DNA from: Fredinandcohnia onubensis
GTDB taxonomy: Bacteria > Bacillota > Bacilli > Bacillales > Bacillaceae_L
Length of the DNA stretch: 64,000 nucleotides
Reading direction: 5' to 3'
Assembly (NCBI RefSeq): GCF_031181385.1
Contig: NZ_JAPSKV010000002.1
Span: 62,001 to 126,000 of the forward strand
The position numbers were made by a program, and so were the translations under genes. Below the pieces are notes generated by a model, which saw nothing but the letters and a program-made list of their open reading frames with translations, had not been told where the DNA came from and searched no databases. Below, piece by piece: positions 22,231-38,007 of the stretch (positions are counted from its first letter, which is position 1; each line of letters starts with the position of its first letter).

Positions 22231-23733
22231 TTAACCAACTAAATTTTTATATGTCTTTTGCAAATAACTTTTATTAATCTTTCCCACATGTGTTTTAGGG
22301 ATCTCCTCCACAAAGATAAACTCTTTTGGTACTTTATATTTGCCTATCTTTTCTTGACAGAACTCTATTAATTCACTTTTTGAGACCTGTTGGTCTGGCA
22401 TTAAGGAGACCACACCAATCACCATTTCTCCCCATTTTTTATGGGGTACACCAATAACAGCAACCTCATTAATAGCAGGGTGCTTGCTTATACATTGTTC
22501 AACCTCAAGTGGGTATACATTTTCTCCACCTGTGATAATCATTTCTTTCTTGCGCCCCACAATATAGTGATAGCCTTCTTCATCACATCTTGCTAAATCC
22601 CCTGTGTGCAACCACCCGTCATTGTACACTTCCTTTGTTGCATCCGGATTATTCCAATAATGATGGAATACATGTTTTCCACGAATCAATAGCTCTCCAA
22701 CTTCTCCAGCCTTTGCCTCATGTCCTTCGGCTGTCATAATCTTCACTTCATTAAAAAACATGGCCTTTCCAACAGACCCTCTTCGAAACCTTGATATCTT
22801 CGGATCAATAAAAAAATTATTTGGCCCCGCCTCTGTTAAACCATAACCTTCTTTAAAAGATAATCCCTTTTCTTCAAAAGCGTGGTAAATTTCGAGTGGG
22901 CAAGGCGCTCCCCCAGATAGAAAGGTATGCATGGTTGGAAATGTCACATTTTTGAAAGAAGGGGTGTTAACCATCATATGGTACATCGTTGGAACGAGTA
23001 AAACGATTGTACATCCTTCTTGATTAATAATTTGAATGGCACGTTTGGGCTCAAAGTTTCTTGCTATTACAACCTTGCCCCCCATCATTAAAATTGGAAT
23101 GGATAATGCATTAAGACCCCCTGTATGGAACATTGGCATATATGTTAAAGTCACATCTTCTGCTGACAAATTCCAGCTCACAATTGTATTTAACCCGTTC
23201 CACAAAATAGATTGATGAGAAAGAACAACTCCTTTCGGTTTTCCTGTTGTTCCACCTGTATAAATGATCGCCAATGGGTCTTCTTCTAGAATGCACTCCT
23301 CTGGTTCAATTGAGGTACTTACTACATTTACAATCCGATGATACTCCTCAGAATCAATTTTTATGATTTTCCTAGATTTATTTTCTTGTAATAAATCCTC
23401 AAATTGGCTTGAGAATGCAACAAGTTTTGGTGACGAATTTGAAAGTATATAATCGATTTCTTCACTCGATAAGCGCCAATTTAGCGGCACAAAGATTGCC
23501 CCAATTTTTCCACATGCAAATAGCAAATCGAAATAACTAACATCATTTGGAGATATTAGTGCTACACGATCTCCCTTCTTGATGCCAATTGTTCTAAAAA
23601 AGTAAGCGATACTTTCCGCACGTTTATTCAGTTCCTGAAAGGTAAATCGGCTGCCAGTTTCTCCATCCACGACAGCAATCGAATCAGGTGATAGTCGAGC
23701 CCGATTTGCAATCCAATCCAGTTCCCACCTCAC
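22231..23733 (-). CDS. AMP-binding acyl-CoA ligase 1 of the SARP-linked cluster
   Basis: Adenylate-forming enzyme of 500 residues that activates a carboxylic acid with ATP and CoA. The P-loop-like motif is IIYTGGTTGKPKG (156-168). The A5-type GYGLTEAGPN, the YxxGDLxxxDExGYxxIxGRKK block and the C-terminal lysine motif (THVGKINK) are all present. The acid substrate is unknown; the fold is of the long/medium-chain or aromatic ligase type. The GTG at 23733 has an AAGGAGAG ribosome binding site. It is its own transcription unit: the SDR terminator lies just upstream, and its promoter carries two TGTAACT heptamers. The cluster contains a second ligase (32560-34041). Confidence 0.9.
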   Translation of the reverse strand: MRWELDWIANRARLSPDSIAVVDGETGSRFTFQELNKRAESIAYFFRTIGIKKGDRVALISPNDVSYFDLLFACGKIGAIFVPLNWRLSSEEIDYILSNSSPKLVAFSSQFEDLLQENKSRKIIKIDSEEYHRIVNVVSTSIEPEECILEEDPLAIIYTGGTTGKPKGVVLSHQSILWNGLNTIVSWNLSAEDVTLTYMPMFHTGGLNALSIPILMMGGKVVIARNFEPKRAIQIINQEGCTIVLLVPTMYHMMVNTPSFKNVTFPTMHTFLSGGAPCPLEIYHAFEEKGLSFKEGYGLTEAGPNNFFIDPKISRFRRGSVGKAMFFNEVKIMTAEGHEAKAGEVGELLIRGKHVFHHYWNNPDATKEVYNDGWLHTGDLARCDEEGYHYIVGRKKEMIITGGENVYPLEVEQCISKHPAINEVAVIGVPHKKWGEMVIGVVSLMPDQQVSKSELIEFCQEKIGKYKVPKEFIFVEEIPKTHVGKINKSYLQKTYKNLVG

Positions 23734-23769: not shown

Positions 23770-23802
23770 ACTATAGAAGACAGGAGTTACATGGAAGTTA
23801 CA
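23770..23802 (-). promoter_or_regulatory. SARP-type promoter: tandem TGTAACT heptamers upstream of ligase 1
   Basis: On the minus strand: TGTAACT, 4 nt, TGTAACT (complement of 23785-23791 and 23796-23802), 9 nt, then the -10 TATAGT (complement of 23770-23775). The heptamer repeat period is 11 bp. No good -35 hexamer is present at the expected distance. The same arrangement, with identical heptamer and spacings, precedes livK at 31440-31472. This matches the direct-repeat geometry known for SARP activators, and such a regulator is encoded at 34771-38007. Confidence 0.7.
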
Positions 23803-23815
23803 TGAGGTTAGTTAT

Positions 23816-23844
23816 AAAAAAAAGAGTGGGTCTCCCACTCTTTT
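23816..23844 (-). terminator. Terminator after the SDR gene
   Basis: Stem AAAAGAGTGGG / CCCACTCTTTT with a 3-nt loop and a long T-run on the minus strand. It ends the long livK-to-SDR operon. Confidence 0.9.
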
Positions 23845-23846
23845 CG

Positions 23847-24584
23847 TTACATCATAATCCCACCATCAACATGCAAGGTTGTTCCATTCACATAATCGGC
23901 TTCATCGGAGGATAAAAATAAATACGCATTAGCGATATCCGATGGCTTCCCCAGTTTTTGAAGTGGAATCATTTGCTTTAATTGATTGATAACTTTTTCA
24001 GGAACGGTTGCAACCATTCCTGTTTCAATAAATCCGGGTACAACTGCATTGACGTTAATTCCTTTTCTGCCCAACTCTTTTGCCCATGTTTTGGTCATCC
24101 CTACTACCGCGGCCTTAGATGCTGCATAGTTTGTTTGCCCAACATTTCCATATACACCCGTTACAGACGAGGTACTGACAATCTTTCCTTTACCATTTGC
24201 AATCAGGTGTGGAACCACTGCTTGTGTACAATTGAAAACGCCTGTTAAGTTCACATCAATAACCTTTTGAAAGTCTTCCTGAGATAGCTTTGTCAACATC
24301 GCATCACGAGTAATTCCAGCATTGTTTATTAAAATATCAATCTTTCCAAACCGCTCCATTACAGCAGCAACCATTTGATCGACACTGTTTCTATCTGCAA
24401 CATCGACCTGAAAGAACTCAACATCTGCACCTTGTTCCTTTAATTCCTCTGCTCTCTTTGCACCTGTTGTGTCATAGTCTGTTAACGCAACTTTTGCTCC
24501 TTCTCGGACAAATGTGATAGCAGCTTCTAGCCCTAGTCCGTTAGCTGCTCCTGTGATAATAGCTACCTTATCCTTTAATCTCAT
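23847..24584 (-). CDS. Short-chain dehydrogenase/reductase (FabG-like)
   Basis: NAD(P)-dependent oxidoreductase of 245 residues, classical SDR family. The cofactor motif is TGAANGLG (11-18). NNAG is at 87-90, N112 is in the VNLTG motif, and the catalytic Ser140, Tyr153 and Lys157 (YAASK) are present. D36 after the second strand (LTDYD) favours NAD over NADP. It is FabG-like and could act on a 3-hydroxyacyl or 3-oxoacyl thioester. The ATG overlaps the hydrolase stop codon (ATGA) and has a GAGGAG ribosome binding site. It is the last gene before a strong terminator. Confidence 0.9.
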   Translation of the reverse strand: MRLKDKVAIITGAANGLGLEAAITFVREGAKVALTDYDTTGAKRAEELKEQGADVEFFQVDVADRNSVDQMVAAVMERFGKIDILINNAGITRDAMLTKLSQEDFQKVIDVNLTGVFNCTQAVVPHLIANGKGKIVSTSSVTGVYGNVGQTNYAASKAAVVGMTKTWAKELGRKGINVNAVVPGFIETGMVATVPEKVINQLKQMIPLQKLGKPSDIANAYLFLSSDEADYVNGTTLHVDGGIMM

Positions 24585-25492
24585 TTTGCAGGCTCCTCTT
24601 GCTTCATAAATTTATGCATTTCACTTAACAATAAGTCTAGATTATCGATTAACGGCGAGTGGCCACAATCCTCAAGTTCAACAAATGTAGCGTTATCCCC
24701 TAAATCCTCGATAATTTCCTTTGCCATATTTTCTAGTACAACATAATCCCTGTCACCACGCATCACTAGCACTGGGATATTAATACGGTCTACCAGTCCT
24801 GTTCCCTCCGTTAAACCATTGTGATGATGACTGATATTAAAAGTATTTAATGAAAAATAAACTTCAGCAAGATTTCGCTGTGTCATCATATCCTCTAGAT
24901 ACTCATCATAATGCGCTTCTTCAGGTTGTCTTTTGGTGTAAATGGCCGCATTCCAAATCGCTTTTAATGTTTCTTTATCTCGATTGTTATAAGCGGTTTG
25001 GATTGGGATTGTACGTGCTAGATCTTGGTGAATGTCATCCATCGTCTTTAAACGATATGAAAAATCCATCTTCCCGTCAGCACCTAAGCCAAAGAAGGGA
25101 AACCCCCTCGTTGATGCTGATGCCAACAGTATTAGCTTCGAGCAAAGTCCAGGATGGTCTACGACAAACTGCATTCCTACAGCACCACCAGTCGACCAAC
25201 CGACCATTGTAAAGTCTGACAAGCCTAATTCGTCAACGAATAGCTTAATATCATCAGAAAAGTCCTTTATTGACTGAACTTTTTTGTGGTAGGTTGAAAT
25301 ACCAAAACCTCTCATATCAACTGCATAGACTTTGTAATCGCTGTCAAGATTTTCAATAACTATATCCCAGTGCTTTGATGAGGACATGTTCCCGTGAACA
25401 AGTAGTACAATTTTATCCCCACCCTCACGTTCCCGATATCCTAACGTTTCTCCATTTGCTAGATTAACAGATTTCAGTTCGACAGCTGGCAT
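24581..25492 (-). CDS. Alpha/beta hydrolase
   Basis: Alpha/beta-fold hydrolase of 303 residues. The oxyanion motif is HGNMSS (33-38). The nucleophile elbow is GWSTGG with Ser100. An acid residue (D247 or D249 in MRGDRDY) and His278 (CGHSPL) complete the triad. It could hydrolyse an ester, a thioester or a C-C bond; the sequence does not decide. I chose the ATG at 25492 (MPAVEL) because a GGGGGGAT stretch lies 7 nt upstream. A longer frame to 25528 starts inside the KAS III gene without a site. It overlaps the KAS III stop by 19 nt and the SDR start by 4 nt, so translation is coupled. Confidence 0.87.
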   Translation of the reverse strand: MPAVELKSVNLANGETLGYREREGGDKIVLLVHGNMSSSKHWDIVIENLDSDYKVYAVDMRGFGISTYHKKVQSIKDFSDDIKLFVDELGLSDFTMVGWSTGGAVGMQFVVDHPGLCSKLILLASASTRGFPFFGLGADGKMDFSYRLKTMDDIHQDLARTIPIQTAYNNRDKETLKAIWNAAIYTKRQPEEAHYDEYLEDMMTQRNLAEVYFSLNTFNISHHHNGLTEGTGLVDRINIPVLVMRGDRDYVVLENMAKEIIEDLGDNATFVELEDCGHSPLIDNLDLLLSEMHKFMKQEEPAK

Positions 25493-26511
25493 GAACGATC
25501 CCCCCATTTTATTGCCGTGGCCCCCCACGCATATCCAATTCCTGCACTCACTAACACAACAAGATCTCCTTCTTTTATTTTACCTTTTTTTTCCGCTATT
25601 TCCAAAGAAAGAATTTGATCTATTTGACCGATATGCCCATATTCATTTAAATAGATTGATTGTTCCTCAGATAGGCCTAATTCCTTTAACACGTAATCAT
25701 GGGCTGATTTCTTCATGTGGAGAATACCTAAATAATCAATATCTTTCTCTGTATATCCACTTTTTTCTACGGCAGTTCGAATAACCTTAAGAAAGTTTTG
25801 CATGGACTTTTCTTCAAGCCGCTGCTTCATCCCCTCTGGGTCAAGGACATCGAGCATGTTTAATTTTTGCTCAAGCGCCTCTTTTGTCATTGGATATTTT
25901 GTTCCCCCTGCTACCACAACAACGTCCTCGGAAAATGCACCGTCCGTTATAATATGACTTTCAAGGACGTGGTTTTTTTGTGCACCTCTTTGTAAAAGAA
26001 TTGCACCTCCACCAGCTCCTAGATTATACATAAAGCGAGTTCTCAGATTCTCGTAATCAATGAAATCTACATTGCGATAACCACCTGCAAGTAAAACCGT
26101 TTTAATAGAGTCATCCGACTTCATCATATTCTTAGCGACTTTTAAAGCCATGATTGTCGTACCACAGCGCATCGCAACGTCAAATCCCCAAGCATTAACC
26201 GCACCAAGCTCTTGTTGCATCTTAATCGCAGCTGTCCACAAGGGATATTCCTTATGTTCTTCTCCGATATAAATAATTAAATCGATATCTAGTGGATCGA
26301 TCTTTGCTTTGTTTATAGCTTCTCTTGCTGCTTTTATTCCCATTTCACACGTATGGTCATCAGGTCCGGGAATTGGCTTTTTGAATATGCCCAGTTTCTT
26401 TTCAACAATTTCCTTGGGTATCCCGCTCATTCGTGAAATGTCTTCTCCAGTTAGAAAATCATTTGGAATGTAAATTCCTGTACTTATAATTCCAACTGAT
26501 TGCAAAGTCAA
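25474..26511 (-). CDS. KAS III-like condensing enzyme 1 (Cys-His-His)
   Basis: Thiolase-superfamily protein of 345 residues with a FabH-like layout. The nucleophile is C116 (FDVAMRCGTT). The first active-site His is H265 (LHMKKSAHD). The position that is Asn in FabH (HGNTSA in E. coli) is His293 here (YGHIGQID). Loss of the HQAN motif and the Asn-to-His change argue against a housekeeping FabH. Its role may be another Claisen-type condensation or the reverse cleavage. The start is TTG at 26511 with GAGGAG 9 nt upstream, inside the end of the small upstream gene. A paralogue with the same change is at 31491-32498. Confidence 0.85.
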   Translation of the reverse strand: MTLQSVGIISTGIYIPNDFLTGEDISRMSGIPKEIVEKKLGIFKKPIPGPDDHTCEMGIKAAREAINKAKIDPLDIDLIIYIGEEHKEYPLWTAAIKMQQELGAVNAWGFDVAMRCGTTIMALKVAKNMMKSDDSIKTVLLAGGYRNVDFIDYENLRTRFMYNLGAGGGAILLQRGAQKNHVLESHIITDGAFSEDVVVVAGGTKYPMTKEALEQKLNMLDVLDPEGMKQRLEEKSMQNFLKVIRTAVEKSGYTEKDIDYLGILHMKKSAHDYVLKELGLSEEQSIYLNEYGHIGQIDQILSLEIAEKKGKIKEGDLVVLVSAGIGYAWGATAIKWGDRSCQLSN

Positions 26512-26517
26512 TGTGAG

Positions 26518-26697
26518 TCACTCCTCTATTACACGTTTCATGTACTGAACAGCATCATCTAAATCTGTAACAACTACTTCATCTTCCCCTTGAACATGGC
26601 TTACCTTTATCCGCCATTGCTTTTTCATTGTCTCACTATCAACATGAATTAAGGCACAACGGACAACGAATGAAGTTATGGTTTGATTATCATTCAT
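26518..26697 (-). CDS. 59-residue protein of unknown function in the acyl-CoA cluster
   Basis: Small gene between livM and KAS III-like 1. The ATG at 26697 has GGAGAAAGGG just upstream, and the stop lies 6 nt before the KAS III start. The protein begins MNDNQTITSF, appears beta-rich in the middle (KQWRIKVSHVQGEDEVVVTD) and ends in an acidic helix (LDDAVQYMKRVIEE). I do not recognise the family. The tight spacing and good ribosome binding site argue it is real. It could be an accessory subunit of the neighbouring condensing enzyme. Confidence 0.75.
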   Translation of the reverse strand: MNDNQTITSFVVRCALIHVDSETMKKQWRIKVSHVQGEDEVVVTDLDDAVQYMKRVIEE

Positions 26698-26709
26698 GAC
26701 CCTTTCTCC

Positions 26710-27717
26710 TTAGCCAGCAATTTTTTCTTTATCGACGTCTTTCGTTTTATGCGTACCCTTCCTTTTATAAAACCACGACTTTACAGTTCCGACGATTCCC
26801 ATTGGGAAGAACATAACGGCTAAGATATATAAAATGCCAAAGAAGATCATCCATCGTTCAAAAATCCAATGAACCTTTGCAAGTCCTGTTAGCCAATGGT
26901 GGGCAAATTCAATTAGTCCCGCTCCAATGATGGCTCCAACAAGCGTCCCTACTCCACCAATGATCGTCATGAGAAGAGCATCCAATGTCACATCGAGCGC
27001 AAATACTGAAGTATTTACAAAACGTAGTGTAAGAACATACATCGAACCAGAAACACTTGCGATAACACCAGCTACAATACTTGCAATGATCTTATAATGA
27101 ATCACATTGTAGCCTAGTGACTCTGTCCGTGGCTCATTTTCCCGGATAGCTTGAAGAACTCTCCCTAGAGGAGATTCTGTAAATCTCTTTAACACTAAAA
27201 AAACAACAATCATAAGAATTAATGTAATAAAATAAAGAGTCATCCGATCTTTAAAAACATCAGGGATGCGAAAAGTAAATCCGTCATTCCCCCTTGTTAA
27301 CGACCTCCACTTTTCTGCAGCTACTAAAAACAAGCCTGAGAACGCCAACGTCAGCATCGCATAAAAGTGACTCTTTAACCGTAGTGAGAGTAAACCGACA
27401 ACATAACTTAAAATGGCTGCCAGTATCATTCCAACAATAATCGATAGTAAAAATATAGGAACTGTTGGGTCAAAGCGATCTAAAAGAATTCCTGTCGAAT
27501 AGGCACCTATTCCAAAAAACATGGCATGCCCAAATGAAACAATCCCTGTAAAACCTAGTAAGATATCATAGCTCATTGCAAAGACAGCAAAAATAAAAAT
27601 TTGTGTAAATAAAATTAATATACTTCTAGTATCATTGATAAATGGATAACATAGAAGGAACACAGCTGCTGCAATGTAAATAATATTAGCTTTTGAAGAA
27701 CCAGTAAGAAGCTTCAT
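26710..27717 (-). CDS. livM: Branched-chain amino acid-type ABC transporter permease (LivM)
   Basis: Inner-membrane permease of 335 residues from the ATG at 27717 (MKLLTG), chosen over an upstream GTG at 27735 because AAGGGGTGAGG is then a proper ribosome binding site. It has about ten hydrophobic segments. The LivM signature region around ENEPRTESLGYNVIHYKIIAS and the GGVGTLVGAIIGA stretch are both present. It pairs with LivH to form the channel. It ends in a basic, hydrophilic tail. Liv-type importers in catabolic clusters often carry substrates other than amino acids, so the name is by family only. Confidence 0.9.
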   Translation of the reverse strand: MKLLTGSSKANIIYIAAAVFLLCYPFINDTRSILILFTQIFIFAVFAMSYDILLGFTGIVSFGHAMFFGIGAYSTGILLDRFDPTVPIFLLSIIVGMILAAILSYVVGLLSLRLKSHFYAMLTLAFSGLFLVAAEKWRSLTRGNDGFTFRIPDVFKDRMTLYFITLILMIVVFLVLKRFTESPLGRVLQAIRENEPRTESLGYNVIHYKIIASIVAGVIASVSGSMYVLTLRFVNTSVFALDVTLDALLMTIIGGVGTLVGAIIGAGLIEFAHHWLTGLAKVHWIFERWMIFFGILYILAVMFFPMGIVGTVKSWFYKRKGTHKTKDVDKEKIAG

Positions 27718-27721
27718 TTCC

Positions 27722-28582
27722 TCACCCCTTTGCACCGAATAATCCTTGTGGTCTAAAAATTAATACAACGGCCATTAGAAGCATATTAACTGCTAGTGAT
27801 AATTCTGGGACGTAGTAGGCCATGAAGGATCCCGATAACCCTACTAGGATTGCTGCAAACAGGGAGCCTGTAATACTTCCCATACCACCGATAACAACGA
27901 CAATAAATGCGAGTATCGCAAATTCCATTCCCATCTCTGCATAAATTTGGCCGGAATATGGTCCTAGTAATACACCACCAAGTGCTGCCATAGCTGCACC
28001 TACCATAAAGACAAGCATAAAAATCTTTTTAATATTGATTCCAAGTGATTGAACCATTTCTTTGTTAATTACACCGGCACGAACAATTAATCCGATTTTT
28101 GTATTTTTAAGGATATAGTAAATGAGGAAGAAAACTAGAAATCCAACCAATATGATAAACAAGCGATATTTGATTAAAATAACCCCGCCAAATTCCCAGC
28201 TCCCGCTTAAATATTCAGGGGTTTTCGCACTTAATTGGTTCGGTCCCCAAACGACCTTCAACATTTCAGAAAGAACGATCATAACCCCTAGCGTGATCAA
28301 AATTTGCTGAACATGATTTCCATATACAGGAGTTACAATGAATTTTTCCATAAGTAAACCTAAAATAAGTCCTGTAATCAGGGCAGTAATAATTCCGGCT
28401 ACAAAGCTTCCAGTTTGCCCATATGACCAAACTCCTGCATATGCTCCCCAGGCAAACAAACCTCCATGCGCAAAGTTTAGGACATCCATAAGACCAAAAA
28501 TCAAGGTTAACCCTGCTGCAAGTAGAAAAACTAACATACCTGTAGCAAGGCCGTTAATCGTTAAATTGATGATTGCTTCCAC
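27722..28582 (-). CDS. livH: Branched-chain amino acid-type ABC transporter permease (LivH)
   Basis: Membrane permease of 286 residues, LivH family. Motifs include GLMDVLNFAHGGLFAWGAY (residues about 30-48) and the GGMGSITGSLFAAILVG segment, where the ATPase contacts the permease. It ends with RPQGLFG, a very common C-terminus in this family. The GTG start at 28582 has a GGAGG ribosome binding site. It lies between livF and livM in one operon. Confidence 0.92.
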   Translation of the reverse strand: MEAIINLTINGLATGMLVFLLAAGLTLIFGLMDVLNFAHGGLFAWGAYAGVWSYGQTGSFVAGIITALITGLILGLLMEKFIVTPVYGNHVQQILITLGVMIVLSEMLKVVWGPNQLSAKTPEYLSGSWEFGGVILIKYRLFIILVGFLVFFLIYYILKNTKIGLIVRAGVINKEMVQSLGINIKKIFMLVFMVGAAMAALGGVLLGPYSGQIYAEMGMEFAILAFIVVVIGGMGSITGSLFAAILVGLSGSFMAYYVPELSLAVNMLLMAVVLIFRPQGLFGAKG

Positions 28583-28613
28583 AAATTTTTCCTCCTTTCA
28601 CCAATGATTCCAA

Positions 28614-29321
28614 CTAAGCAATTCCTAAATATTGTTTACGGAGTTGTTCGTTTTCTTTTAACTCCTTCATTTCACCACGATGTACGGTTCTTCCATCGTC
28701 AATAATGAAAAAGCGGTCTCCAATCGTACTTGCCATGATAAAGTTTTGCTCCACGAGTACAATTGTCGTTTTTGATTTCATCTCTTGAATGGATTCCATT
28801 ACTTTTTCAACAACAATTGGTGCTAGTCCCTTACTTGGTTCGTCAATGAGCAATAAGTCATTGTTATTGACATATGCTCTGGCAATTGAAAGCATTTGTT
28901 TTTGTCCACCACTGAGATTTCCGCCCTTTCTTTTCCAGAACTTCTTCAAATCTGGAAACAGATTCAAAATATAATCTAGGCGTTCCTTCGTTGCTTCATT
29001 TTCCTTTTTAATTGCAACTTTCATATTTTCTTCTACAGTCAACTCTCCGAATATCCCTTGGTCTTCAGGGACATAGCCAATTCCTTTTGTGGCAATATGG
29101 TAGGTTGCTAGACCTGAAATGTTCTCACCATTAAAATCGATTTTTCCTTTAGCCGGTGGATTAAGTCCCATAATCGACCTTAAGGTAGTTGTTTTGCCGG
29201 CACCATTTCTGCCTAATAGAACAGTAACCTCTCCTTTTTTAGCCTCAAATGAAACGCCTTGAAGTATATGAAATTGATCAATATAGGTTTCTATTCCCTC
29301 AACCTTAAGATGCAGTGTCAT
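28614..29321 (-). CDS. livF: ABC transporter ATP-binding protein (LivF)
   Basis: ATPase of 235 residues. Walker A is GRNGAGKTT (about 37-45), the signature is LSGGQKQ, Walker B is LLLIDEPSKGLAP and the switch His is replaced by the LivF-type sequence VLVEQN. It overlaps the end of livG by 17 nt and has a TAGGAGG ribosome binding site. It works with LivG as the cytoplasmic motor of the importer. Confidence 0.93.
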   Translation of the reverse strand: MTLHLKVEGIETYIDQFHILQGVSFEAKKGEVTVLLGRNGAGKTTTLRSIMGLNPPAKGKIDFNGENISGLATYHIATKGIGYVPEDQGIFGELTVEENMKVAIKKENEATKERLDYILNLFPDLKKFWKRKGGNLSGGQKQMLSIARAYVNNNDLLLIDEPSKGLAPIVVEKVMESIQEMKSKTTIVLVEQNFIMASTIGDRFFIIDDGRTVHRGEMKELKENEQLRKQYLGIA

Positions 29322-30072
29322 CGTACAAACCTCCTAAATACGCTGATTGAACTGTTTCATTGTTCATGATTTCTTCCGGTGTTCCATCAGCAAGCAATCT
29401 GCCGTTAAATAAGACCATCACACTATCAGAAAGATCAAGAATCATATCCATTTTGTGTTCAATCAAAATAATAGTCCGATTCCCTTCCTCCTTAATTTTT
29501 TTGATAACCTCTAGGATTGCAGGAACCTCCTCAAGTGACATTCCAGCAGTTGGTTCATCAAGTAACAGAACCTCAGTCTCCAATGCCAACAACATGGCTA
29601 TTTCTAATTTGCGTTTTTCTCCATGTGCAAGGTTTTTAGCGATTGCATCAGCTTTATTATCAAGAAGAACAAGCGATAAAATCTGTAAAGCCTTTTCTTC
29701 GAATTGTGGATATTTACGGAAATGCTTAAACATTTGGTAGCGAACACCAGATTCCGATTGAACGGCTAATCGTACGTTTTCTAGAACAGTCAAATTTGGA
29801 AACACATTTGTTATTTGAAAGGATCGACCGATTCCTTTACGTGTACGTACTGTTGGAGATAATTTTGTAATATCTTCTCCTTGTAAGAAAACTTGGCCAG
29901 CAGTCGGTGTAAGCTGACCACTTAATAAATTGAAAAAAGTTGTTTTGCCGGCACCATTGGGGCCAATAATTGATTTGAAGTGGTTCGGAGGAACTGAAAA
30001 ATTCACATTATCAACAGCTACATGCCCTCCAAAAGCGATTGTCAGATTTTTCGTTTCAATAATATTCATCAC
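29305..30072 (-). CDS. livG: ABC transporter ATP-binding protein (LivG)
   Basis: ATPase of 255 residues. Walker A is GPNGAGKTT. The signature is degenerate, as usual in LivG (LAHGEKRKLEIAMLLA). Walker B is LLLDEPTAGMS and the switch segment is LIEHKMD. It starts at GTG 30072 or ATG 30069; GAGGTG lies upstream at a workable distance for either. It is followed by livF in the same operon. Confidence 0.93.
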   Translation of the reverse strand: MMNIIETKNLTIAFGGHVAVDNVNFSVPPNHFKSIIGPNGAGKTTFFNLLSGQLTPTAGQVFLQGEDITKLSPTVRTRKGIGRSFQITNVFPNLTVLENVRLAVQSESGVRYQMFKHFRKYPQFEEKALQILSLVLLDNKADAIAKNLAHGEKRKLEIAMLLALETEVLLLDEPTAGMSLEEVPAILEVIKKIKEEGNRTIILIEHKMDMILDLSDSVMVLFNGRLLADGTPEEIMNNETVQSAYLGGLYDDTAS

Positions 30073-30138
30073 GTATTTTCACCTCTTTTTTCTAAAAGTA
30101 AGCTTCGGTAGTAATCCTACCGAAGCTTATCGTTCAAA

Positions 30139-31392
30139 TTAGTTGCGAACTGGTGGAGCTGTTTCCTCTGGGCTTAACTCTCTTATTAAGACTGGAACTG
30201 GATAATCCACACCATCAACTTTTTCCAGGCGAATCGCATATAAAGTTTGAAGAGCTTGGTGATCTTCTTCACGGAATGTCATTTTTCCTTTCGGTGTATC
30301 AAAGCTCATTCCTTCCATTGCTTCGATTAGTTTATCTGCATTCGTATCGCCATCTGTCTTCTTAATCGCTTCCACAATTGCTAAGGCAGCCGTCATTCCT
30401 CCTGGAGTAAATAAGTCAGGAACTTCACCATTGAACTTTTCTTTGTGTTTTTCAACTAACCAATCGTTAATCTCATTTTTCGGAAGTTGATGATAGTATA
30501 CTGTGAATCCTTCCATTCCAACTAACGCTTCCATTGTTGCAAGTGCTGGGATATCTGGAGCACCTGTGGAAATTTTAATACCATTTTCTTGAACCTTCAT
30601 ATCTGCAATTTGGTTCCAAGGTGAATTTGCACCTGCCCACACAACAAATAAATAATCAGGCTTTGCTTCAATAATCTTTTGGATATTTGAAGTAAAGTCA
30701 GTTGCTGCAGGATCTGCATATTCTTCATGGATAATTTCAGCACCTAAATTTTCGGCGGCTTCCTTAAAGGCTGCAACTCCATCTCGACCGAAAGCATAAT
30801 CTGGTGCAAGGGTTGCAATTTTAACCCCTTCTTTTGCAATTGCTGCCGCACCTGCAACCGCATCCTGTGATGAATTACGGGCTGTTCTAAATATATACTC
30901 ATTCCAATCTGCACCTGTAATACTGTCTGCTGCAGCTGGTTCAACAATCATAATCTTTTCATATTCTTCAGCTAATGGAAGAACAGCTAATGTGTCTGCT
31001 GAACTTGATGATCCAACTAAGAAGTCAACTCCGTCTTCTTCAATTAATTTTGTTGCTTTTTGAATGGCAACTTCTGGTTTTGTCTCAGTATCCTCTACAA
31101 AGAATTCGATTTTTTGACCATTTACTTCCATCGTCCCGTCTGTAGCGTACTCGAGGCCGAGTTCAAATCCTTGTGTTGACTGCTTTCCGTAGGATTCAAG
31201 CCCACCACTTAATGAAGCAAGCACACCAATTTTGATTGGATCCTTTGATTCTTCTGCTGGTTTGTCTGAATCTCCTGAGCTTGGATTCTCTTCTTCTGTA
31301 GTTGATGACCCTGAGCTACATGCTGCAGCAATCACCATTAGCATGGCAAGCATGCTTAAAAAAAGCATTTTACGAAATGAGTAATTCTTCAT
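30139..31392 (-). CDS. livK: Liv-type ABC transporter substrate-binding lipoprotein
   Basis: Extracytoplasmic receptor of 417 residues. The ATG at 31392 (MKNYSFRK) follows an AAGGGGGAAGG ribosome binding site, so I use it in place of an upstream in-frame start. The lipoprotein signal has lipobox IAAAC at about residues 21-25, then a Ser/Glu-rich linker. The mature part is a type 1 periplasmic-binding fold (PIKIGVLASLSGGLESYGKQ). It is first in the operon livK-G-F-H-M, then the small gene, KAS III-like, hydrolase and SDR. The promoter carries tandem TGTAACT heptamers. The ligand is not identifiable from sequence. An acid processed by the downstream enzymes is a reasonable guess. Confidence 0.9.
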   Translation of the reverse strand: MKNYSFRKMLFLSMLAMLMVIAAACSSGSSTTEEENPSSGDSDKPAEESKDPIKIGVLASLSGGLESYGKQSTQGFELGLEYATDGTMEVNGQKIEFFVEDTETKPEVAIQKATKLIEEDGVDFLVGSSSSADTLAVLPLAEEYEKIMIVEPAAADSITGADWNEYIFRTARNSSQDAVAGAAAIAKEGVKIATLAPDYAFGRDGVAAFKEAAENLGAEIIHEEYADPAATDFTSNIQKIIEAKPDYLFVVWAGANSPWNQIADMKVQENGIKISTGAPDIPALATMEALVGMEGFTVYYHQLPKNEINDWLVEKHKEKFNGEVPDLFTPGGMTAALAIVEAIKKTDGDTNADKLIEAMEGMSFDTPKGKMTFREEDHQALQTLYAIRLEKVDGVDYPVPVLIRELSPEETAPPVRN

Positions 31393-31439
31393 TTTTCCTT
31401 CCCCCTTATATTCGTTGAAACTGTGAAACCTTTGCATTC

Positions 31440-31472
31440 ATCGTACTTGAGGATAGTTACAACTGAGTTACA
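31440..31472 (-). promoter_or_regulatory. SARP-type promoter: tandem TGTAACT heptamers upstream of livK
   Basis: On the minus strand: TGTAACT, 4 nt, TGTAACT (complement of 31455-31461 and 31466-31472), 9 nt, then the -10 TACGAT (complement of 31440-31445). The repeat period is 11 bp and no consensus -35 is present. The heptamers, period and 9-nt spacer are identical to the site at 23770-23802. Confidence 0.7.
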
Positions 31473-31490: not shown

Positions 31491-32498
31491 TCAGACACCC
31501 TTCCATTGAATAACAGTAGCAGCCCATGTATAACCCGTTCCGGCACTTACTGCAACCGCAATGTCCCCTTCAGATATTTTACCTTGCTCATTAGCAAAAT
31601 GCAGGCCAATACATGGGTCTAGTGCCGACATATGTCCATGATGATCTAAATAAATTGTATTTTCTTCTGGTATCTGTAATATTTGAAGTAGTTCTCTAAA
31701 CATGGAGCGTTTCGTATGTAGTGGTAGAAGAACTTTAATATCTTGAAGTGAATAGCCGCTTTTCTGCAATGAATTTCGAATTACTTTTTCAAAATTGGGA
31801 ATGGATACAGGGTCAAGTCTCTCCTTCATTCTGGATGGATCATGTACATCGATATAATGTTGCCTATTTACTACTGTTTCAATGCTTGGAAAAAGCTTAG
31901 AGCCTCCAGCGGGTACCCGAACATCCTCATAAAATGAACCATCGGTGATTATCGAGCTTTCAAGAATTTCACTTAAAGTGGAATTTTTCTTAACGAGTAC
32001 AGCTGCCCCGCCATCACCAAAATTAAACATAAACCTGGAACGGGGGTTTTCGTAATCAATAATTTGTGATTCCTTACAACCTCCAACTAGTAAAATGTTT
32101 TCTATGGTTTTATCTGATGTAAGCATATCCTTTGCCACTTTTAAAGCAATAGGAAAACAAGAGCTCACATTCATTAATTCAAAGGCATATGCGTTTTTCG
32201 TTCCTAATTCAAATTGAAGCTTTGGAGCACATGACCAGACTAAATAATCCTTATGTGGACTACCAAAATAGATAACAACATCAATTGATAAAGGATCTAT
32301 TTTAGAAAATAGTTGCTTTGCAGCCTCAATTCCTAGGTCAGTAGCCTGCATTGTATCGTCGGACACATGCTTTTGATACAAACCGAATTTCTCAATGATA
32401 ACCTGTTCAGGAATTCCGGTTTTTTTAGACAATTCCGCTGCTGTTTCAATTCCTTTTGGAAAATATACACTTGTCGCTTCAATTCCAACATTTATCAT
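31491..32498 (-). CDS. KAS III-like condensing enzyme 2 (Cys-His-His)
   Basis: 335-residue paralogue of the 25474-26511 protein. The nucleophile is C114 (MNVSSCFPIA), the His is H261 (LPLHTKRSMF), and the FabH Asn position is His289 (HHGHMSALD). As in its paralogue, the FabH HQAN box is lost. It shares the patterns IDYENxRxRFMxN and IITDGxFxEDVxVxAGGxK with paralogue 1, so they form a distinct subfamily. They may work as a pair or a heteromer. The ATG at 32498 has AAGGGGGAT upstream. It is third in tetR-ligase 2-KAS 2. Confidence 0.85.
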   Translation of the reverse strand: MINVGIEATSVYFPKGIETAAELSKKTGIPEQVIIEKFGLYQKHVSDDTMQATDLGIEAAKQLFSKIDPLSIDVVIYFGSPHKDYLVWSCAPKLQFELGTKNAYAFELMNVSSCFPIALKVAKDMLTSDKTIENILLVGGCKESQIIDYENPRSRFMFNFGDGGAAVLVKKNSTLSEILESSIITDGSFYEDVRVPAGGSKLFPSIETVVNRQHYIDVHDPSRMKERLDPVSIPNFEKVIRNSLQKSGYSLQDIKVLLPLHTKRSMFRELLQILQIPEENTIYLDHHGHMSALDPCIGLHFANEQGKISEGDIAVAVSAGTGYTWAATVIQWKGV

Positions 32499-32559
32499 AC
32501 TAATCCCCCTTCTGATTGAACCATCATACCTGTTGCCCAGTTAATACAAATTTCCTTTT

Positions 32560-34041
32560 TTATGAATTAACTAGCTGGTTCTTCTGAATTTTCCCTGTCG
32601 CATTCCTTGGTAGTTTTTCGATAAACTCTATTTTTTGAGGAATCTTGTATCTAGCCAAAAATAGTTTGCAATATTCGATAATTTCCTCTTCTGTTAGTAA
32701 ACTCTCTTTCTTTTTTACAACAAAGGCTACTGGAGTTTCTCCCCATTTCACATCAACAACTCCTACTACAGCTACCTCTACAACATCTGCTAACTGACCA
32801 ATTATTTGTTCAAGTTCCAACGGGTAAATGTTTTCTCCACCGGAAATAATCATTTCTTTTTTCCTTCCCACTATATACAAAAATCCCTCTTCATCAACCC
32901 TTGCTAAATCTCCTGTGTATAACCATCCATCCTGAAGAGCTTCAGCTGTTGCTTCTGGTCTATTCCAGTATTCTTTCATTACATTTGGACCACGGACAAT
33001 GAGTTCTCCAATAGCTCCCCTTTTAACAATAGCTCCCTCTGAATCTATTAATTTATAATCACAAAACATAACAGGCTTTCCAATAGACCCGATTTTCCGT
33101 TTAGCATCCTCTTTAGAAAGCATAAACAATGTTGGTGATGTTTCAGTCATCCCAAACCCTTGACCAAACAGTAACCCCTTATCAAAAAAAGCCTGAATTA
33201 GTTCATGAGGACATGGTGCACCACCGTTATAAAACCATCGTACAGATTCCAAATTGGTCTTTTCAAAAGAAGGACTATTCAAAATGGCCTGATGAATTGT
33301 AGGAACGCCCATTACAATTGTCACTTGATGCTGCTCAATCAACGATAAAGCCTTCTCCGAATCAAATTTTCCCTCAGGTAAAATTATGGTCCCTCCAGTA
33401 AAGAGGGTCGGAAATGCAAATAAACCAATTCCACCAATATGAAAAAGTGGAAGTAACACAAGTGAACGGTCATTTGATGTGATATCAATTGCAGTACAAT
33501 TATTGATGGCATTCCAAAACATATTATCCTGTGTTAAAACCGCCCCCTTAGGCTTACCGGTTGTTCCCGAAGTATAACAAATTATAAAGGGAGCGCTTTC
33601 ATTAATATGTAAAGAAATGTTCTTATTTCTATCTTCAAGATTCCTTACGTTTTCTATAGAAATTATTTCTCTCAATTTACTTTTCTTCTGTAACGAAATA
33701 GCTGTATTTTTAAAGACATTTTCTAAAAATAGAACCTCTGTCCCACTATCATTAAATTGGTATAAAAGCTCATTTTCCGTTAAACGAGTGTTAAGAGGGA
33801 CAGCGATACATTCTAGTTTTGCTATTGCAAATAATAAAACAATATATTCATATCTATTATGGGATAAGATCGCAATGCGTTCTCCTGCCTTTATAGATAA
33901 ATCTTGTTTTAGGAAAGTAGCTAATTTGTCTACATCTTGTTTCAAAACTTTATAGGAGATCTGTTCTTTTTCTGTAATTACGGCTATACGCTCTGGATGT
34001 AAATCTGCTCTTTTATCAATCCAATAAGCAATGCCTTGCAT
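32560..34041 (-). CDS. AMP-binding acyl-CoA ligase 2 of the SARP-linked cluster
   Basis: Adenylate-forming enzyme of 493 residues. The core motif is CYTSGTTGKPKGA (about 155-167). GQGFGMTETSP, the YTGDLARVDEEGFLYIVGRKKEMIISG block and the C-terminal NATGKIQK lysine are all present. It is related to the 22231-23733 ligase but clearly diverged, so the two may have different acid substrates. Some MenE-like features (short length, similar core) are seen, but the context does not suggest menaquinone synthesis. The ATG at 34041 has an AAGGAGGAG ribosome binding site, 15 nt after tetR. Confidence 0.88.
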   Translation of the reverse strand: MQGIAYWIDKRADLHPERIAVITEKEQISYKVLKQDVDKLATFLKQDLSIKAGERIAILSHNRYEYIVLLFAIAKLECIAVPLNTRLTENELLYQFNDSGTEVLFLENVFKNTAISLQKKSKLREIISIENVRNLEDRNKNISLHINESAPFIICYTSGTTGKPKGAVLTQDNMFWNAINNCTAIDITSNDRSLVLLPLFHIGGIGLFAFPTLFTGGTIILPEGKFDSEKALSLIEQHQVTIVMGVPTIHQAILNSPSFEKTNLESVRWFYNGGAPCPHELIQAFFDKGLLFGQGFGMTETSPTLFMLSKEDAKRKIGSIGKPVMFCDYKLIDSEGAIVKRGAIGELIVRGPNVMKEYWNRPEATAEALQDGWLYTGDLARVDEEGFLYIVGRKKEMIISGGENIYPLELEQIIGQLADVVEVAVVGVVDVKWGETPVAFVVKKKESLLTEEEIIEYCKLFLARYKIPQKIEFIEKLPRNATGKIQKNQLVNS

Positions 34042-34056
34042 AAAGACTCCTCCTTG

Positions 34057-34662
34057 TTATTCCTTTTTAAGTCCATCAAATATTAGTGTCATTGCTGCTT
34101 CAAACGCCTCCTCTGGGACATCCTGTTGCTCCCAATACACCCATCTCATTCCAAGAAATTGACCAATTGACATTAAGCAATACGCAACCGTTTCTTGATC
34201 AATTTCTTTAAATTCCCCAACTTCGATTCCAGCATCAAGACTTTTTAAGAAGCCATTTGCGAGTTTATCATAGTACCATCTATAAAGTTCTTTATCGACC
34301 ACTACCGCTTGTTGAACAATACTATATAAATTTCTATGGCTCTTTACCCAATTAAAGAAAGCCTTGAAACCTTTCCTTTGTGCATCTTCGAAATTTTTAG
34401 ATTTACTCATTTCTTCTTTTATTGCTAAACGAAGTTCACGACTATATTGTCGAATTAGTTCGTCAAAGATATCTTTTTTTGAGGGAAAATAATTATAAAA
34501 TGTACCCTGAGCAACGTTTGCTTCTTGTGAAATATTTACAATTGAAGTTTCATAGTATCCCTTTTGTCCAAATACCTCCTCTGCTGCACGTAATAGTTTC
34601 TCTCTTGTTTCTAGCCCTTTTTGAGTCAATACTTTTTCTTCAGACTTAATTGTTTCTGACAC
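34057..34662 (-). CDS. TetR family transcriptional regulator
   Basis: TetR-type repressor of about 201 residues. The N-terminal helix-turn-helix is TREKLLRAAEEVFGQKGYYETSIVNISQEANVAQGTFYNYFPSKKDIFDEL. The C-terminal ligand domain resembles those of fatty-acid/acyl-CoA-responsive members, but the ligand is unknown. A GTG at 34662 fits the GAGAGGTGA ribosome binding site better than the upstream GTG at 34671. It is the first gene of tetR-ligase 2-KAS 2 and has a good sigma-A-like promoter, so it probably controls its own operon. Confidence 0.88.
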   Translation of the reverse strand: MSETIKSEEKVLTQKGLETREKLLRAAEEVFGQKGYYETSIVNISQEANVAQGTFYNYFPSKKDIFDELIRQYSRELRLAIKEEMSKSKNFEDAQRKGFKAFFNWVKSHRNLYSIVQQAVVVDKELYRWYYDKLANGFLKSLDAGIEVGEFKEIDQETVAYCLMSIGQFLGMRWVYWEQQDVPEEAFEAAMTLIFDGLKKE

Positions 34663-34683
34663 CTGAATCACCTCTCAGTTTTT

Positions 34684-34770: not shown

Positions 34771-37700
34771 CTATTTTTGTGTTTGAAGGACCATTTCGTA
34801 CATTTGTTTTGTTGTTTGCATTGGCTCTACTCCTAGTTCTTCCTCCAATGCCGCAACACATTTTCTATACCACTTGATTGCTTGGGGACGGTTGTTTTTA
34901 TGATAGTAGCAAAACATCAATAATCGATAAGCTTCTTCCCATGTACGGTCCTTTGCTAGAATTTGTTCACACCAATAAATGGCTTCTTCAAATTTTTCCG
35001 TTTGAACATAGCCTTGCGCAATGCGTTCCGCACCCCGTAAAAATAATACTTGAAGCCTTTCCCTCTCACCCAAGCACCAATCTTCATATCTTCGGTTTGG
35101 TAAATAATCACCTTCATAGTATTCTAATGCTCGCCGTAAGCATTTGATAATCTGATCAGTATCCTTTTCATGCAAACCAGCATGGATCCATTCTTCGAAT
35201 TCGATAATATCTAACTGATAGCCGGCTTCCTGATTCAACCCATAAGATGATCCTATCCGTTGGATAAAAAACGGAGTCGATCTAGCGACACGGTTTGGCT
35301 CTAATGCATTGTTTAATGCATTTAAAGCAACCTTAAAATCTCTCGCTGCTGCTGCTTCTTCATGCTCTGGCCAAAGCATCGCAAATATTTCTTCGCGTGC
35401 AATCATTCGATTTCGCATCGTTACAAAAAGCTCAAGCAACTCCTTAGCCTTTCCACGCTGCCAATCAGATTCTTCCACCTCTTGACTGCCAAGCCACACT
35501 CGAAATTTACCTAAAGTTTGAATTCGTAATGTGTAACCAGGATGAGATGTGATATTTGAATATCCTAAATCATTTAGCAATTGATTTACATACGGAAGAT
35601 GAATTCCTTCCTTCTGAGCTTCTAATAACAAAGGCACAATATTATATAAATCTAGCGGTCCAAAAGTCGTTCGTTTTGTTAGGATAAAATCATATCCTCC
35701 AACCTGCAGTTTCTTGAGAAAGTTCGTAATGAAATCTTTAAAAGCTTCCCGGTTCTTCTGATGAAAATAGAGAAATGCAAACCAAAGCTGCGTTAGTACA
35801 ACTCCATATTGGTCACCACAATTTGTATACAAAGCCTCGCATCTTGTTAAATATTGTTCAGCATCCTCCCATTTTTCATTATGAACAGAAGAAATTCCCA
35901 TGCATAATAAAATTAGTGCAGATAGCCATGCGTCCTTTACCTTTTCTGTCTCATCCAAGGCCCTATTGCCATATTCAATGGCACGGTCATATAATCCTCG
36001 ATTTCCATTTAGAAGACATAAGCCCATCAAGGGTTCTGCCTTTCCTCTTGATACATTTATTTCATCCATAATTTCAAGAGCTGTTTCATAGCATTGTGAT
36101 GCTAATGAAGAATCATATTTATCGAGTAATTGCACCGCATGTCCCATACGCATCCAGCCACAAGCCTCAACAAATGGTGCTTGAAATTGAACTCCTTGCT
36201 TTATCCCGGATTCTGCGAGCTCTTTTGCTGCTTGCCCATTGCCCATAAAGGCTTCGATTAAGGATAACAGTAGATCTGTTTCGCGATGAGATTGCTGTAA
36301 ATGAATGGTTTTCTGATTTCTTTCAACCAATTTCTTTTGTGAAAGAATTTTTTTCGCTTCTACAAGTTTACCAGTTCGTAAATAAAGCCTAGATTCCAAG
36401 TTTCCATCTAATAGTGGAATATTTAGGCTTCTCCCTTTTTCAAACCATTTTTTCGCTTTATTAGCTTGGCCCGCATTTGCAAGGTTTTCAGCCATTAATT
36501 GGTATAATCTACTTTTATCCTCATTAGATGAGGACTCATTTTCTTCAAGAGCCTCAATCGCCTGTAATAAATAGCGCTCAGCTTTACCCGGTTGGATTGT
36601 ATCAAGATAGATTCTCGCTTGTCCCTCATATGCCTTGCTTAAACTCAGAAGGTCTCTGGCAGACTGTGCTAGGTGTATTGTTTTTATGTAACAATCCTCA
36701 GCCTCTTCATAGGAACACCGGTACCTCAATGCTTCCCCCTTATATAGCCATAATAGGTAATAATGATTCATAAGAGAGTCTGGAATGTTTTTAATCCGGT
36801 CCAACAAACCCTCAAGTTGCCCGTTTTGTATCATTTTCTTTCCATAATGGTGGAGAATTTCTGCTATTCCCTCAAAATCTCGAATTGCCTCAAGATGATA
36901 TATTGCTTGATTAAAATCACCAATTCGTTGATAATATCTTGCAGTTTGAATATGGAGGTTATTAAAATGCCGATCATTTGTCGAGAATAACCTTTGCTCA
37001 AGAAACTCCTTAAACAAAGCATGGTATCGATACTGCCCTTCTCCAATCGAAAGTAAAAAAAGATTATGGTCAGAAAGCTCCTTTAACATTTCTGCTGAAC
37101 TTCGAATTCCTAAAACCTCGTCACATACTTTTCCATTTACTTCTTCAAATATGCAAGTGTTCTCTAGAAATTGCTGGATCATTGGAGGTTGTTTCATAAA
37201 CACTTCCATCGCAAGGAAACGAAATAACTCATCAAGTGATTTTGATTTATTATTGAGAATCGATTCCAAGCCACCGTCAGAAGAAAGTTGTTGGCGAATC
37301 ATGCCAATTGCAATAATCCATCCTTCTGTCAGTGAAAAGATTTTTTCAATTTCTTTCTCAGTCATATCCCCTTCGTACAAATCACTTAACAGGACTTCAA
37401 CCTCATCATACGAAAACATGAGGTCGCGCTGCCGTATCTCTAAGAGTTCTTCTTTCACAATCATCGAAGTCAGAAAAGCCCAGGAAGGTTTTTTCCTACT
37501 TGAGATTACAAGATTTAAATTGGGTGGAAGATGTTGAATCAACCATGTCATCCACTGGTCAATTGAAGAAGAATGCTGAATCAAATGGTAATCATCGATG
37601 ACAAGCATAATACTCGAATCTAGTATGGTAATTTCATTAATAAATAACGAGCAAAGGGTTCGTATTTCTTCATCACGTACATACCGTTCAATATTTTCAA

Positions 37701-38007
37701 CATATAGTAGGAGTTCTGTTCCAAAACCTTGGTGATTTTTCCGTATAGCATAGACCACATAGATTAAAAATGGAATAATGTCATCATCATTTGGTCCTAC
37801 ACTATACCAACACGACAACTTTTTCTGATCACGAATAAAAGATGCAAGTGCAGTTGTTTTACCATATCCCGCTCCAGAATGTAGAATGGTTAGCGGATAT
37901 CTTGGAATCGTTTTCATTTTTTTCATCAATGAAGGTCTTCTCAATATGGTGTCCTTTAAGTTCGGTGGAGTAATTTTTGTCTGTAGAACTTGTATCTTGG
38001 TACCCAT
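34771..38007 (-). CDS. MalT-like STAND ATPase regulator with SARP/BTAD DNA-binding end
   Basis: Large transcriptional regulator of 1078 residues. The N-terminus is a MalT-type signal-transduction ATPase with Walker A HSGAGYGKTT (43-52) and Walker B-like IMLVIDDYHL (about 129-138). The middle (about 370-800) is a run of TPR-like helices. The last 250 residues carry a winged-helix domain (TLGKFRVWLG ... RGKAKELLELFVTMRNRMIAREEIFAMLWP) and a bacterial transcriptional activation domain, the SARP combination. In MalT the LuxR helix-turn-helix is at the C-terminus; here a SARP module takes its place. The ATG at 38007 has a GGGGGG ribosome binding site. It is monocistronic and upstream of the acyl-CoA cluster, whose two promoters bear SARP-like repeats. 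Confidence 0.9.
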   Translation of the reverse strand: MGTKIQVLQTKITPPNLKDTILRRPSLMKKMKTIPRYPLTILHSGAGYGKTTALASFIRDQKKLSCWYSVGPNDDDIIPFLIYVVYAIRKNHQGFGTELLLYVENIERYVRDEEIRTLCSLFINEITILDSSIMLVIDDYHLIQHSSSIDQWMTWLIQHLPPNLNLVISSRKKPSWAFLTSMIVKEELLEIRQRDLMFSYDEVEVLLSDLYEGDMTEKEIEKIFSLTEGWIIAIGMIRQQLSSDGGLESILNNKSKSLDELFRFLAMEVFMKQPPMIQQFLENTCIFEEVNGKVCDEVLGIRSSAEMLKELSDHNLFLLSIGEGQYRYHALFKEFLEQRLFSTNDRHFNNLHIQTARYYQRIGDFNQAIYHLEAIRDFEGIAEILHHYGKKMIQNGQLEGLLDRIKNIPDSLMNHYYLLWLYKGEALRYRCSYEEAEDCYIKTIHLAQSARDLLSLSKAYEGQARIYLDTIQPGKAERYLLQAIEALEENESSSNEDKSRLYQLMAENLANAGQANKAKKWFEKGRSLNIPLLDGNLESRLYLRTGKLVEAKKILSQKKLVERNQKTIHLQQSHRETDLLLSLIEAFMGNGQAAKELAESGIKQGVQFQAPFVEACGWMRMGHAVQLLDKYDSSLASQCYETALEIMDEINVSRGKAEPLMGLCLLNGNRGLYDRAIEYGNRALDETEKVKDAWLSALILLCMGISSVHNEKWEDAEQYLTRCEALYTNCGDQYGVVLTQLWFAFLYFHQKNREAFKDFITNFLKKLQVGGYDFILTKRTTFGPLDLYNIVPLLLEAQKEGIHLPYVNQLLNDLGYSNITSHPGYTLRIQTLGKFRVWLGSQEVEESDWQRGKAKELLELFVTMRNRMIAREEIFAMLWPEHEEAAAARDFKVALNALNNALEPNRVARSTPFFIQRIGSSYGLNQEAGYQLDIIEFEEWIHAGLHEKDTDQIIKCLRRALEYYEGDYLPNRRYEDWCLGERERLQVLFLRGAERIAQGYVQTEKFEEAIYWCEQILAKDRTWEEAYRLLMFCYYHKNNRPQAIKWYRKCVAALEEELGVEPMQTTKQMYEMVLQTQK

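Follow-up and report, generated by a model that had tools for sequence, protein, structure and literature searches.

Paired heptamer-repeat promoters track a MalT-like regulator with a C-terminal SARP domain in Bacilli and point to a probable regulon for poly(3-hydroxybutyrate) scavenging

A 64 000 nt stretch of the Fredinandcohnia onubensis genome (assembly GCF_031181385.1, contig NZ_JAPSKV010000002.1, positions 62 001 to 126 000; hereafter the window) contains two promoters built on the same direct heptamer repeat, one upstream of livK, an importer gene, and one upstream of ligB, an acyl-CoA ligase gene. The cluster to which both belong also encodes a 1078-aa regulator, here termed REG (34771..38007, minus strand). 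Across many genomes the repeat is conserved before these genes and tracks the presence of REG. Judged from sequence comparisons, REG probably (probability about 0.78) activates a regulon for the scavenging of poly(3-hydroxybutyrate) (PHB) or 3-hydroxybutyrate, by a SARP-like mechanism at promoters that have no −35 element. An earlier note on this DNA had inferred a link between protein and site; the comparative evidence for this link is now strong, and we still infer it.

Direct reading of the minus strand confirmed both of the 33-mers described in the earlier note, with the same heptamer, 11-bp period and 9 nt spacer. The livK promoter (31440-31472) reads TGTAACT-CAGT-TGTAACT-ATCCTCAAG-TACGAT and consists of an upstream heptamer that is conserved before livK (31466..31472), a downstream heptamer one 11-bp period away (31455..31461) and, 9 nt past the latter, a −10 element (31440..31445) assigned from the geometry of the 98 cluster sites described below; the predicted transcript start is the A at 31433. 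The ligB promoter (23770-23802) reads TGTAACT-TCCA-TGTAACT-CCTGTCTTC-TATAGT, with an upstream heptamer conserved before ligB (23796..23802), a downstream heptamer (23785..23791) and a −10 element placed by sequence and by the same geometry (23770..23775), the predicted start being the A at 23763. A third heptamer-like sequence, TATAACT, upstream of the ligB site was dismissed because of its wrong period. These two promoters are the only exact matches to TGTAACT-N4-TGTAACT-N9-TANNNT in the window, where nine matches at up to three mismatches compare with 8.1 expected and only the two perfect ones exceed background. Random occurrence of the motif in the genome was likewise refuted: the whole genome (4.26 Mb) has two exact matches, both in the cluster, two with one mismatch and 21 with two. 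Only the exact matches are meaningful, because at up to two mismatches a reversed-pattern control outnumbers the real pattern (48 versus 25 matches). An extended consensus derived from relatives, TGYAACY-N4-TGYAACY-N9-TANNNT, gave two exact matches, none with one mismatch and nine with two, against nine control matches. With the exact pair standing alone and the two-mismatch matches equal to the control, the predicted regulon of this organism comprises two promoters. No site before REG that would suggest self-regulation was found in the window, even at three mismatches.

Co-occurrence of the motif with REG homologues, which the earlier note had put forward as a check, was examined in a family sample of 17 genomes and an order sample of 299. 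The exact repeat was present in 12/17 family genomes and full-length REG in 13/17; all 12 motif genomes were among those with REG, and the repeat was absent from all four genomes without full-length REG. In the order sample, REG orthologues were identified in 80 genomes (REG+; 76 full-length, four split or fragmentary). The exact repeat occurred in 67 of the 80 REG+ genomes versus six of the 219 without REG (REG−; Fisher P=6e-46), and the association held within the 20 family labels containing both states (61 of 74 REG+ versus 2 of 94 REG− genomes, Cochran–Mantel–Haenszel P=6e-23, including family f13 with one REG+ genome, ten REG− genomes and no motif), with both P values overstating independence because genomes share ancestry. 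Among REG regions outside the order but within the class, the site was kept in 11 of the 20 examined, ten being of the TGYAACY type and one (L338) having one mismatch; in L337, site variants ending in G precede livK with the same 9 nt to the −10 element. The earlier note held that a SARP circuit driving a lipid or acid metabolism cluster in Bacillaceae would be unusual, such circuits being best known from actinomycetes; this one is confined neither to the family nor to the order.

The exact repeat had 111 sites in the 299 genomes, as against 20 hits of the reversed control, a figure added up by eye. A large majority (93 of 111) shared a contig with REG and were no more than 25 kb from it, and 90 of these 93 were downstream on the REG strand. 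Of the 18 other sites, four are cluster sites whose contig is not that of REG (one lies within a ligB ORF called too long), five precede PHB-depolymerase-type genes (in G042, G184, G026 and twice in G019, whose depolymerase-type match on C38 has an internal stop), one precedes a hydrolase gene (L255 in G273) and one, in a REG+ genome (G024:C54), fits no target group. The remaining seven are in six REG− genomes (G020, G036, G039, G082, G164 and G301), a number in line with what the control yields by chance (20 matches in 299 genomes). In G039 and G082 the site precedes the same gene, encoding a PdaC/DUF3298 protein (L217), and may have been inherited from a shared ancestor.

The position of the site was determined in 60 stretches from the order that carry all or part of REG, including the near-duplicate pairs L062/L254 and L081/L210; counts over 58 stretches leave out L249 and L250, in which REG is 34–35 % identical. 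At up to two mismatches, the site precedes livK in all 57 examined REG+ stretches that have livK (52 found directly, three hidden by over-long ORF calls in L196, L209 and L222, plus L249 and L250) and precedes ligB in 44 of 50 that have ligB (43 found directly, one, in L237, hidden by an over-long ORF). The possibility raised in the earlier note, that the motif might be absent upstream of orthologous clusters, was checked with the opposite result: it is present there.

Promoter anatomy was compared over 98 non-redundant cluster sites, selected at up to one mismatch with TANNNT outside the selection. Changes in the heptamers were confined to T-to-C substitutions at position 3 or 7 and a single T-to-A. 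A TANNNT sequence was found at exactly 9 nt in 86/98 sites, and no other spacing between 0 and 34 nt had it in more than 18. Among the sites found directly in the REG+ stretches above, at up to two mismatches, it was present at 9 nt in 47/52 before livK and 41/43 before ligB. Outside the order the spacing was 9 nt in 9/11 sites and 8 nt in L336, with TANNNT absent in L328. Seven nucleotides past the −10 element there is an A in 87/98 sites, preceded by T or C in 85/98, as a start point would be. Counted from this predicted start, the two heptamers span positions of about −39 to −33 and −28 to −22. These are promoters of SARP type in having direct repeats with an 11-bp period. In the AfsR–afsS system, the AfsR box spans −40 to −19, is centred at −29.5 and overlaps the −35 region, and the SARP dimer engages sigma region 4 (PMC10936776). 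The published distance from the 3′ repeat to the −10 element is 8 bp (PMC10936776), versus 9 nt in 86/98 sites here, a difference to be read with the repeat edge depending on the register chosen. As the earlier note had reported, no −35 consensus remains at these promoters.

The effector domain of MalT is a LuxR-type helix-turn-helix (HTH), whereas that of REG is a SARP domain. No LuxR-type HTH was found in REG among the models listed at E≤1, and its C-terminus is a winged HTH followed by BTAD. Sequence comparison and predicted structure both confirmed a SARP fold there, with an OmpR-type winged helix and then BTAD; the domain occupies residues 826–1076 of 1078, i.e. it is C-terminal rather than N-terminal. 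Residues 8–409 align with MalT (PDB 8bob, E=3.1e-49), covering a MalT-like STAND NOD and the start of a superhelical sensor, and the MalT model NF003420 matches with E=1.1e-70, although its 239 bits are below the cut-off of 537. The SARP/BTAD assignment of the earlier note thus held for the fold; REG is not a canonical SARP but a chimera with a MalT-like STAND ATPase. W879 (aligned with W74 of AfsR), K892 and V893 are invariant in 79/79 aligned REG proteins.

The closest known SARP activator is AfsR on the afsS promoter (PDB 8hvr and 8k60; PMC10936776). AfsR has its SARP domain N-terminal, before NOD and TPR, whereas REG carries it behind the MalT-like module; REG also differs in its heptamer, TGTAACT, in not keeping T88 and R92, in occurring in Bacilli and in a catabolic regulon. 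The SARP-LAL regulator PimR resembles REG in pairing a SARP domain and an ATPase part related to LAL/MalT, and in its heptamers with 4 nt spacers, but has the reverse domain order, the heptamer CGGCAAG and three repeats in its main operator, and belongs to a Streptomyces antibiotic cluster (PMC5930380). MalT of E. coli (PDB 8bob; PMC10427625) shares the STAND NOD and the superhelical sensor start and activates a polymer-catabolic regulon; its inducer, maltotriose, arises from polymer breakdown (PMC10427625). From these sequence comparisons, a hybrid regulator type best known from Streptomyces antibiotic control seems in many Bacilli to turn on PHB uptake and breakdown genes. In the open literature searched by title and start of abstract, the best-ranked matches included no SARP-type regulator controlling PHB genes in Bacillales, which is no proof of absence.

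The connection with PHB comes from the target genes. The cluster hydrolase (24581-25528) scores 457 bits against NF050089, the intracellular short-chain-length polyhydroxyalkanoate (scl-PHA) depolymerase family (cut-off 300), and among solved structures a poly(3-hydroxybutyrate) depolymerase is its closest match (PDB 8ynv, E=1.7e-89). In family score and structure match it resembles the Bacillus intracellular scl-PHA depolymerase PhaZ (NF050089; PDB 8ynv); unlike PhaZ, it lies in an importer operon, in a genome without a PHA synthase match, and from its sequence it may act on imported oligomers. Independent evidence comes from genes in trans. Relatives of extracellular-type PHB depolymerases, searched with one query protein (NF050058, 331 bits, cut-off 150), were identified in 29/299 genomes (46 matches). 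Thirty of these loci were listed, 14 from REG+ and 16 from REG− genomes, and searched upstream for the site. Among the loci listed, the site (at up to two mismatches) precedes the depolymerase gene in 12/14 REG+ versus 0/16 REG− loci (Fisher P=1e-6), at 49–55 nt from the gene start in nine and 155–168 nt in three; the REG− loci have no site even at three mismatches. In G103 and G158 the depolymerase gene is inside the cluster. Presence of a depolymerase is only modestly associated with REG (14/80 REG+ versus 15/219 REG−, P=0.013), and the strong result is the site before the gene. A link between REG and PHA synthesis was considered and rejected, synthases over the cut-off showing no enrichment (10/80 REG+ versus 32/219 REG−, P=0.71), a result qualified by weaker synthase-like matches of about 200–310 bits in other genomes. 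The cluster, which the earlier note linked to lipid or acid metabolism, most likely serves the catabolism of PHB or 3-hydroxybutyrate rather than general lipid metabolism.

Other explanations of the repeat concern what binds it and with what effect. The TetR gene (34057-34671) adjoins REG in the window and TetR-family proteins often control acyl-CoA genes, so that TetR, or another local regulator, might be the protein that binds the heptamers. TetR sites are usually palindromes, however, unlike the direct repeats here. TetR is also present in only 10/58 REG+ stretches, and in 38 of the 48 without it a site with no more than one mismatch stands before livK. At 13 loci with the TetR cassette and no adjacent REG, 12 livK/ligB upstream regions were found (11/13 loci) and none has the site, the best candidates having three to six mismatches; nine of these 13 genomes lack a REG orthologue (G543 has partial matches of 27–29 %) and four have REG elsewhere. 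The site stays before livK with or without the TetR-ligA-KAS1 cassette, which argues that TetR is not the binder and leaves this explanation barely credible. Repression by REG, with the box blocking sigma access at −35, would fit the overlap of the box with the −35 region, where repressors also bind, but there is no −35 consensus left to block, and the fixed distance from box to −10 element (9 nt in 86/98) is expected of an activator that contacts polymerase. AfsR and MalT are themselves activators (PMC10936776, PMC10427625), and a repressing role for REG is very improbable. As for a chance pair of repeats, all that speaks for it is the AT-richness of the sequence and a genomic copy number that does not exceed the control once two or more mismatches are allowed; given the exact copies and how well they are conserved, the probability of chance is negligible.

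If REG binds the site, the regulon might still serve other short or branched hydroxy or keto acids, or fatty acid metabolism at large, PHB depolymerases having joined it in some genera only. None of the CoA ligases, the KAS III-like enzymes and the liv importer is specific to PHB, relatives of PHB depolymerases occur in only 14/80 REG+ genomes, and the F. onubensis genome itself lacks both a match to the PHA synthase model and any extracellular PHB depolymerase that scores above the family cut-off. Set against this are the cluster hydrolase, far above the scl-PHA depolymerase cut-off and matching a solved PHB depolymerase, and the site at 12/14 of the listed REG+ extracellular-type depolymerase loci; we regard a different acid pathway as unlikely, while the missing depolymerase and synthase mean that the substrate must be of external origin or else a different short hydroxy acid. 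Mobilization of the cell's own stored PHB would agree with the name of the hydrolase family, intracellular depolymerase, and with the degradation route described for B. thuringiensis, in which PhaZ acts with BdhA and AacS (PMC4908106). The same two absences favour external scavenging over own stores, as do the lack of synthase enrichment with REG and the presence of the importer and of extracellular-type depolymerases behind the same site, making use of internal stores distinctly improbable.

Besides the shared ancestry of the genomes and the two absences from F. onubensis, several observations weigh against activation of a PHB regulon by REG through this site. The exact motif is missing from 13/80 REG+ genomes; 11/11 examined of these have a one-mismatch site in the stretch (G106 and G160 left out). 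In L200 (REG split) and L201 (REG fragment) there is no livK cluster behind REG. The ligB site is missing at up to two mismatches in 6/50 stretches (L197, L238, L243, L244, L249 and L250), L249 and L250 having a perfect livK site, and 2/14 of the REG+ depolymerase loci listed have no site. A role in PHB metabolism has been demonstrated for none of KAS2, the importer and ligB, and the closest solved relatives of LivK are unassigned substrate-binding proteins. The base-contacting T88 and R92 of AfsR align with V893 and A897 of REG, so base recognition must differ from that of AfsR. Second REG-like MalT–SARP paralogues, 39–41 % identical and in another gene neighbourhood, occur in L324, L326 and L329–L334 (one family); they keep the REG recognition helix, yet there is no site nearby, and a laxer search near them gave three matches only, with no gene start behind them.

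We propose that REG is a signal-transducing activator, with a MalT-type STAND ATPase/TPR sensor and a C-terminal SARP DNA-binding domain. Since MalT responds to maltotriose, a polymer breakdown product, the inducer is probably a PHB breakdown product, with 3-hydroxybutyrate, 3-hydroxybutyrate oligomers and 3-hydroxybutyryl-CoA as candidates. Two SARP domains would lie side by side on the two heptamers, replacing the −35 element (about −39 to −22), and bound REG would recruit the housekeeping RNA polymerase to the −10 element nine nucleotides downstream. This would drive two transcripts, livKGFHM-KAS2-PHA depolymerase-SDR (SDR, short-chain dehydrogenase) and, past a terminator-like hairpin, ligB; in other genera REG would also drive extracellular-type PHB depolymerases, and some clusters would add a thiolase. 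The regulon would import and burn PHB fragments or 3-hydroxybutyrate released outside the cell. With rather less confidence, we lean towards a polymer-sensing circuit widespread in Bacilli, in which a MalT-type sensor of a polyester product and a transplanted SARP domain, adapting the housekeeping polymerase to −35-less promoters, coordinate extracellular PHB depolymerases, oligomer import, intracellular hydrolysis and oxidation. If this is true, neither actinomycetes nor antibiotics are essential to the SARP promoter mechanism, and Bacilli have a dedicated regulator of bioplastic scavenging. The system joins a regulator, an operator that can be read by eye and a catabolic pathway across many Bacilli genera. 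It makes testable whether a SARP domain is able to adapt the main RNA polymerase of Firmicutes, what a MalT-like sensor other than MalT senses and how soil bacilli turn on their breakdown and import of the bioplastic PHB. Through the operator, hydrolases of unknown function that join the pathway can be predicted as well.

On the minus strand of the window, the cluster runs REG, TetR, ligA, KAS1, site 1, livKGFHM, KAS2, hydrolase, SDR, hairpin, site 2 and ligB. REG comprises the MalT-like STAND ATPase (residues ~8–410), TPR and the C-terminal SARP domain (winged HTH and BTAD, ~826–1076). TetR, ligA (32560-34041) and KAS1 (31491-32498), all assigned by Pfam, form an accessory cassette between REG and livK (31491..34671). 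The livK gene (30139..31392; Pfam Peripla_BP_6) encodes the solute-binding protein of a branched-chain-amino-acid-type ABC importer; its likely start is the ATG at 31392-31390, behind the ribosome site AAGGGGGAAGGAAAA (read by eye), corrected from the mechanical ORF start (ATG at 31437), which overlaps the −10 element. The importer ATPases and permeases (26710..30072; Pfam ABC_tran/BPD_transp_2 for the set) are encoded by livG (29305-30072), livF (28614-29321), livH (27722-28582) and livM (26710-27735). They are followed by KAS2, 3-oxoacyl-ACP-synthase-III-like (25474..26511; NCBIfam NF005308, 535 bits, cut-off 315), the alpha/beta hydrolase of the PHB depolymerase family (24581..25528) and the SDR, which is FabG/acetoacetyl-CoA-reductase-like (23847..24584; Pfam, NCBIfam) and is proposed as a 3-hydroxybutyrate(-CoA) dehydrogenase. 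An intrinsic-terminator-like hairpin and U run (23819..23845, −16.2 kcal/mol) separates the SDR from the ligB site. The product of ligB (22231..23733; Pfam AMP-binding) is an AMP-forming acyl-CoA ligase whose proposed substrate is 3-hydroxybutyrate or acetoacetate.

Related clusters vary in content. A thiolase lies between SDR and ligB in L202 (best model BktB-like, below its cut-off), and L192–L195 (G071, G134, G255 and G296) have a 1017–1018-aa ORF between SDR and the ligB site, an AcrB/MMPL-type transporter in L192. The L255 hydrolase (10665-11921, 418 aa) has a perfect site 46 nt upstream, a signal-peptide-like start and a GWSKG box (by eye); it matched no Pfam/NCBIfam model at the thresholds used, had a weak LipA match and is a candidate PHA depolymerase of another class. 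Among the REG-less cassettes, L064 (Cytobacillus depressus) holds nearly the whole cluster, TetR-ligA-KAS1-livKGFHM-hydrolase-SDR-ligB, with no REG and no heptamer site, which on its gene content is a natural loss or replacement of the circuit. A sigma-54 or other replacement regulator in such cassettes was considered and rejected: the 620–673-aa ORFs between KAS1 and livK in L065, L071 and L079, and behind KAS1 in L074, encode NHL beta-propeller proteins. Elsewhere in the window, 15078-21962 encodes what is probably a giant scavenger of nucleic acids outside the cell, a 2294-aa protein with metallophosphoesterase/5′-nucleotidase units, DUF6359, chitobiase-C/Fn3_assoc domains, an exonuclease-endonuclease-phosphatase domain and an end that resembles an LPXTG anchor.

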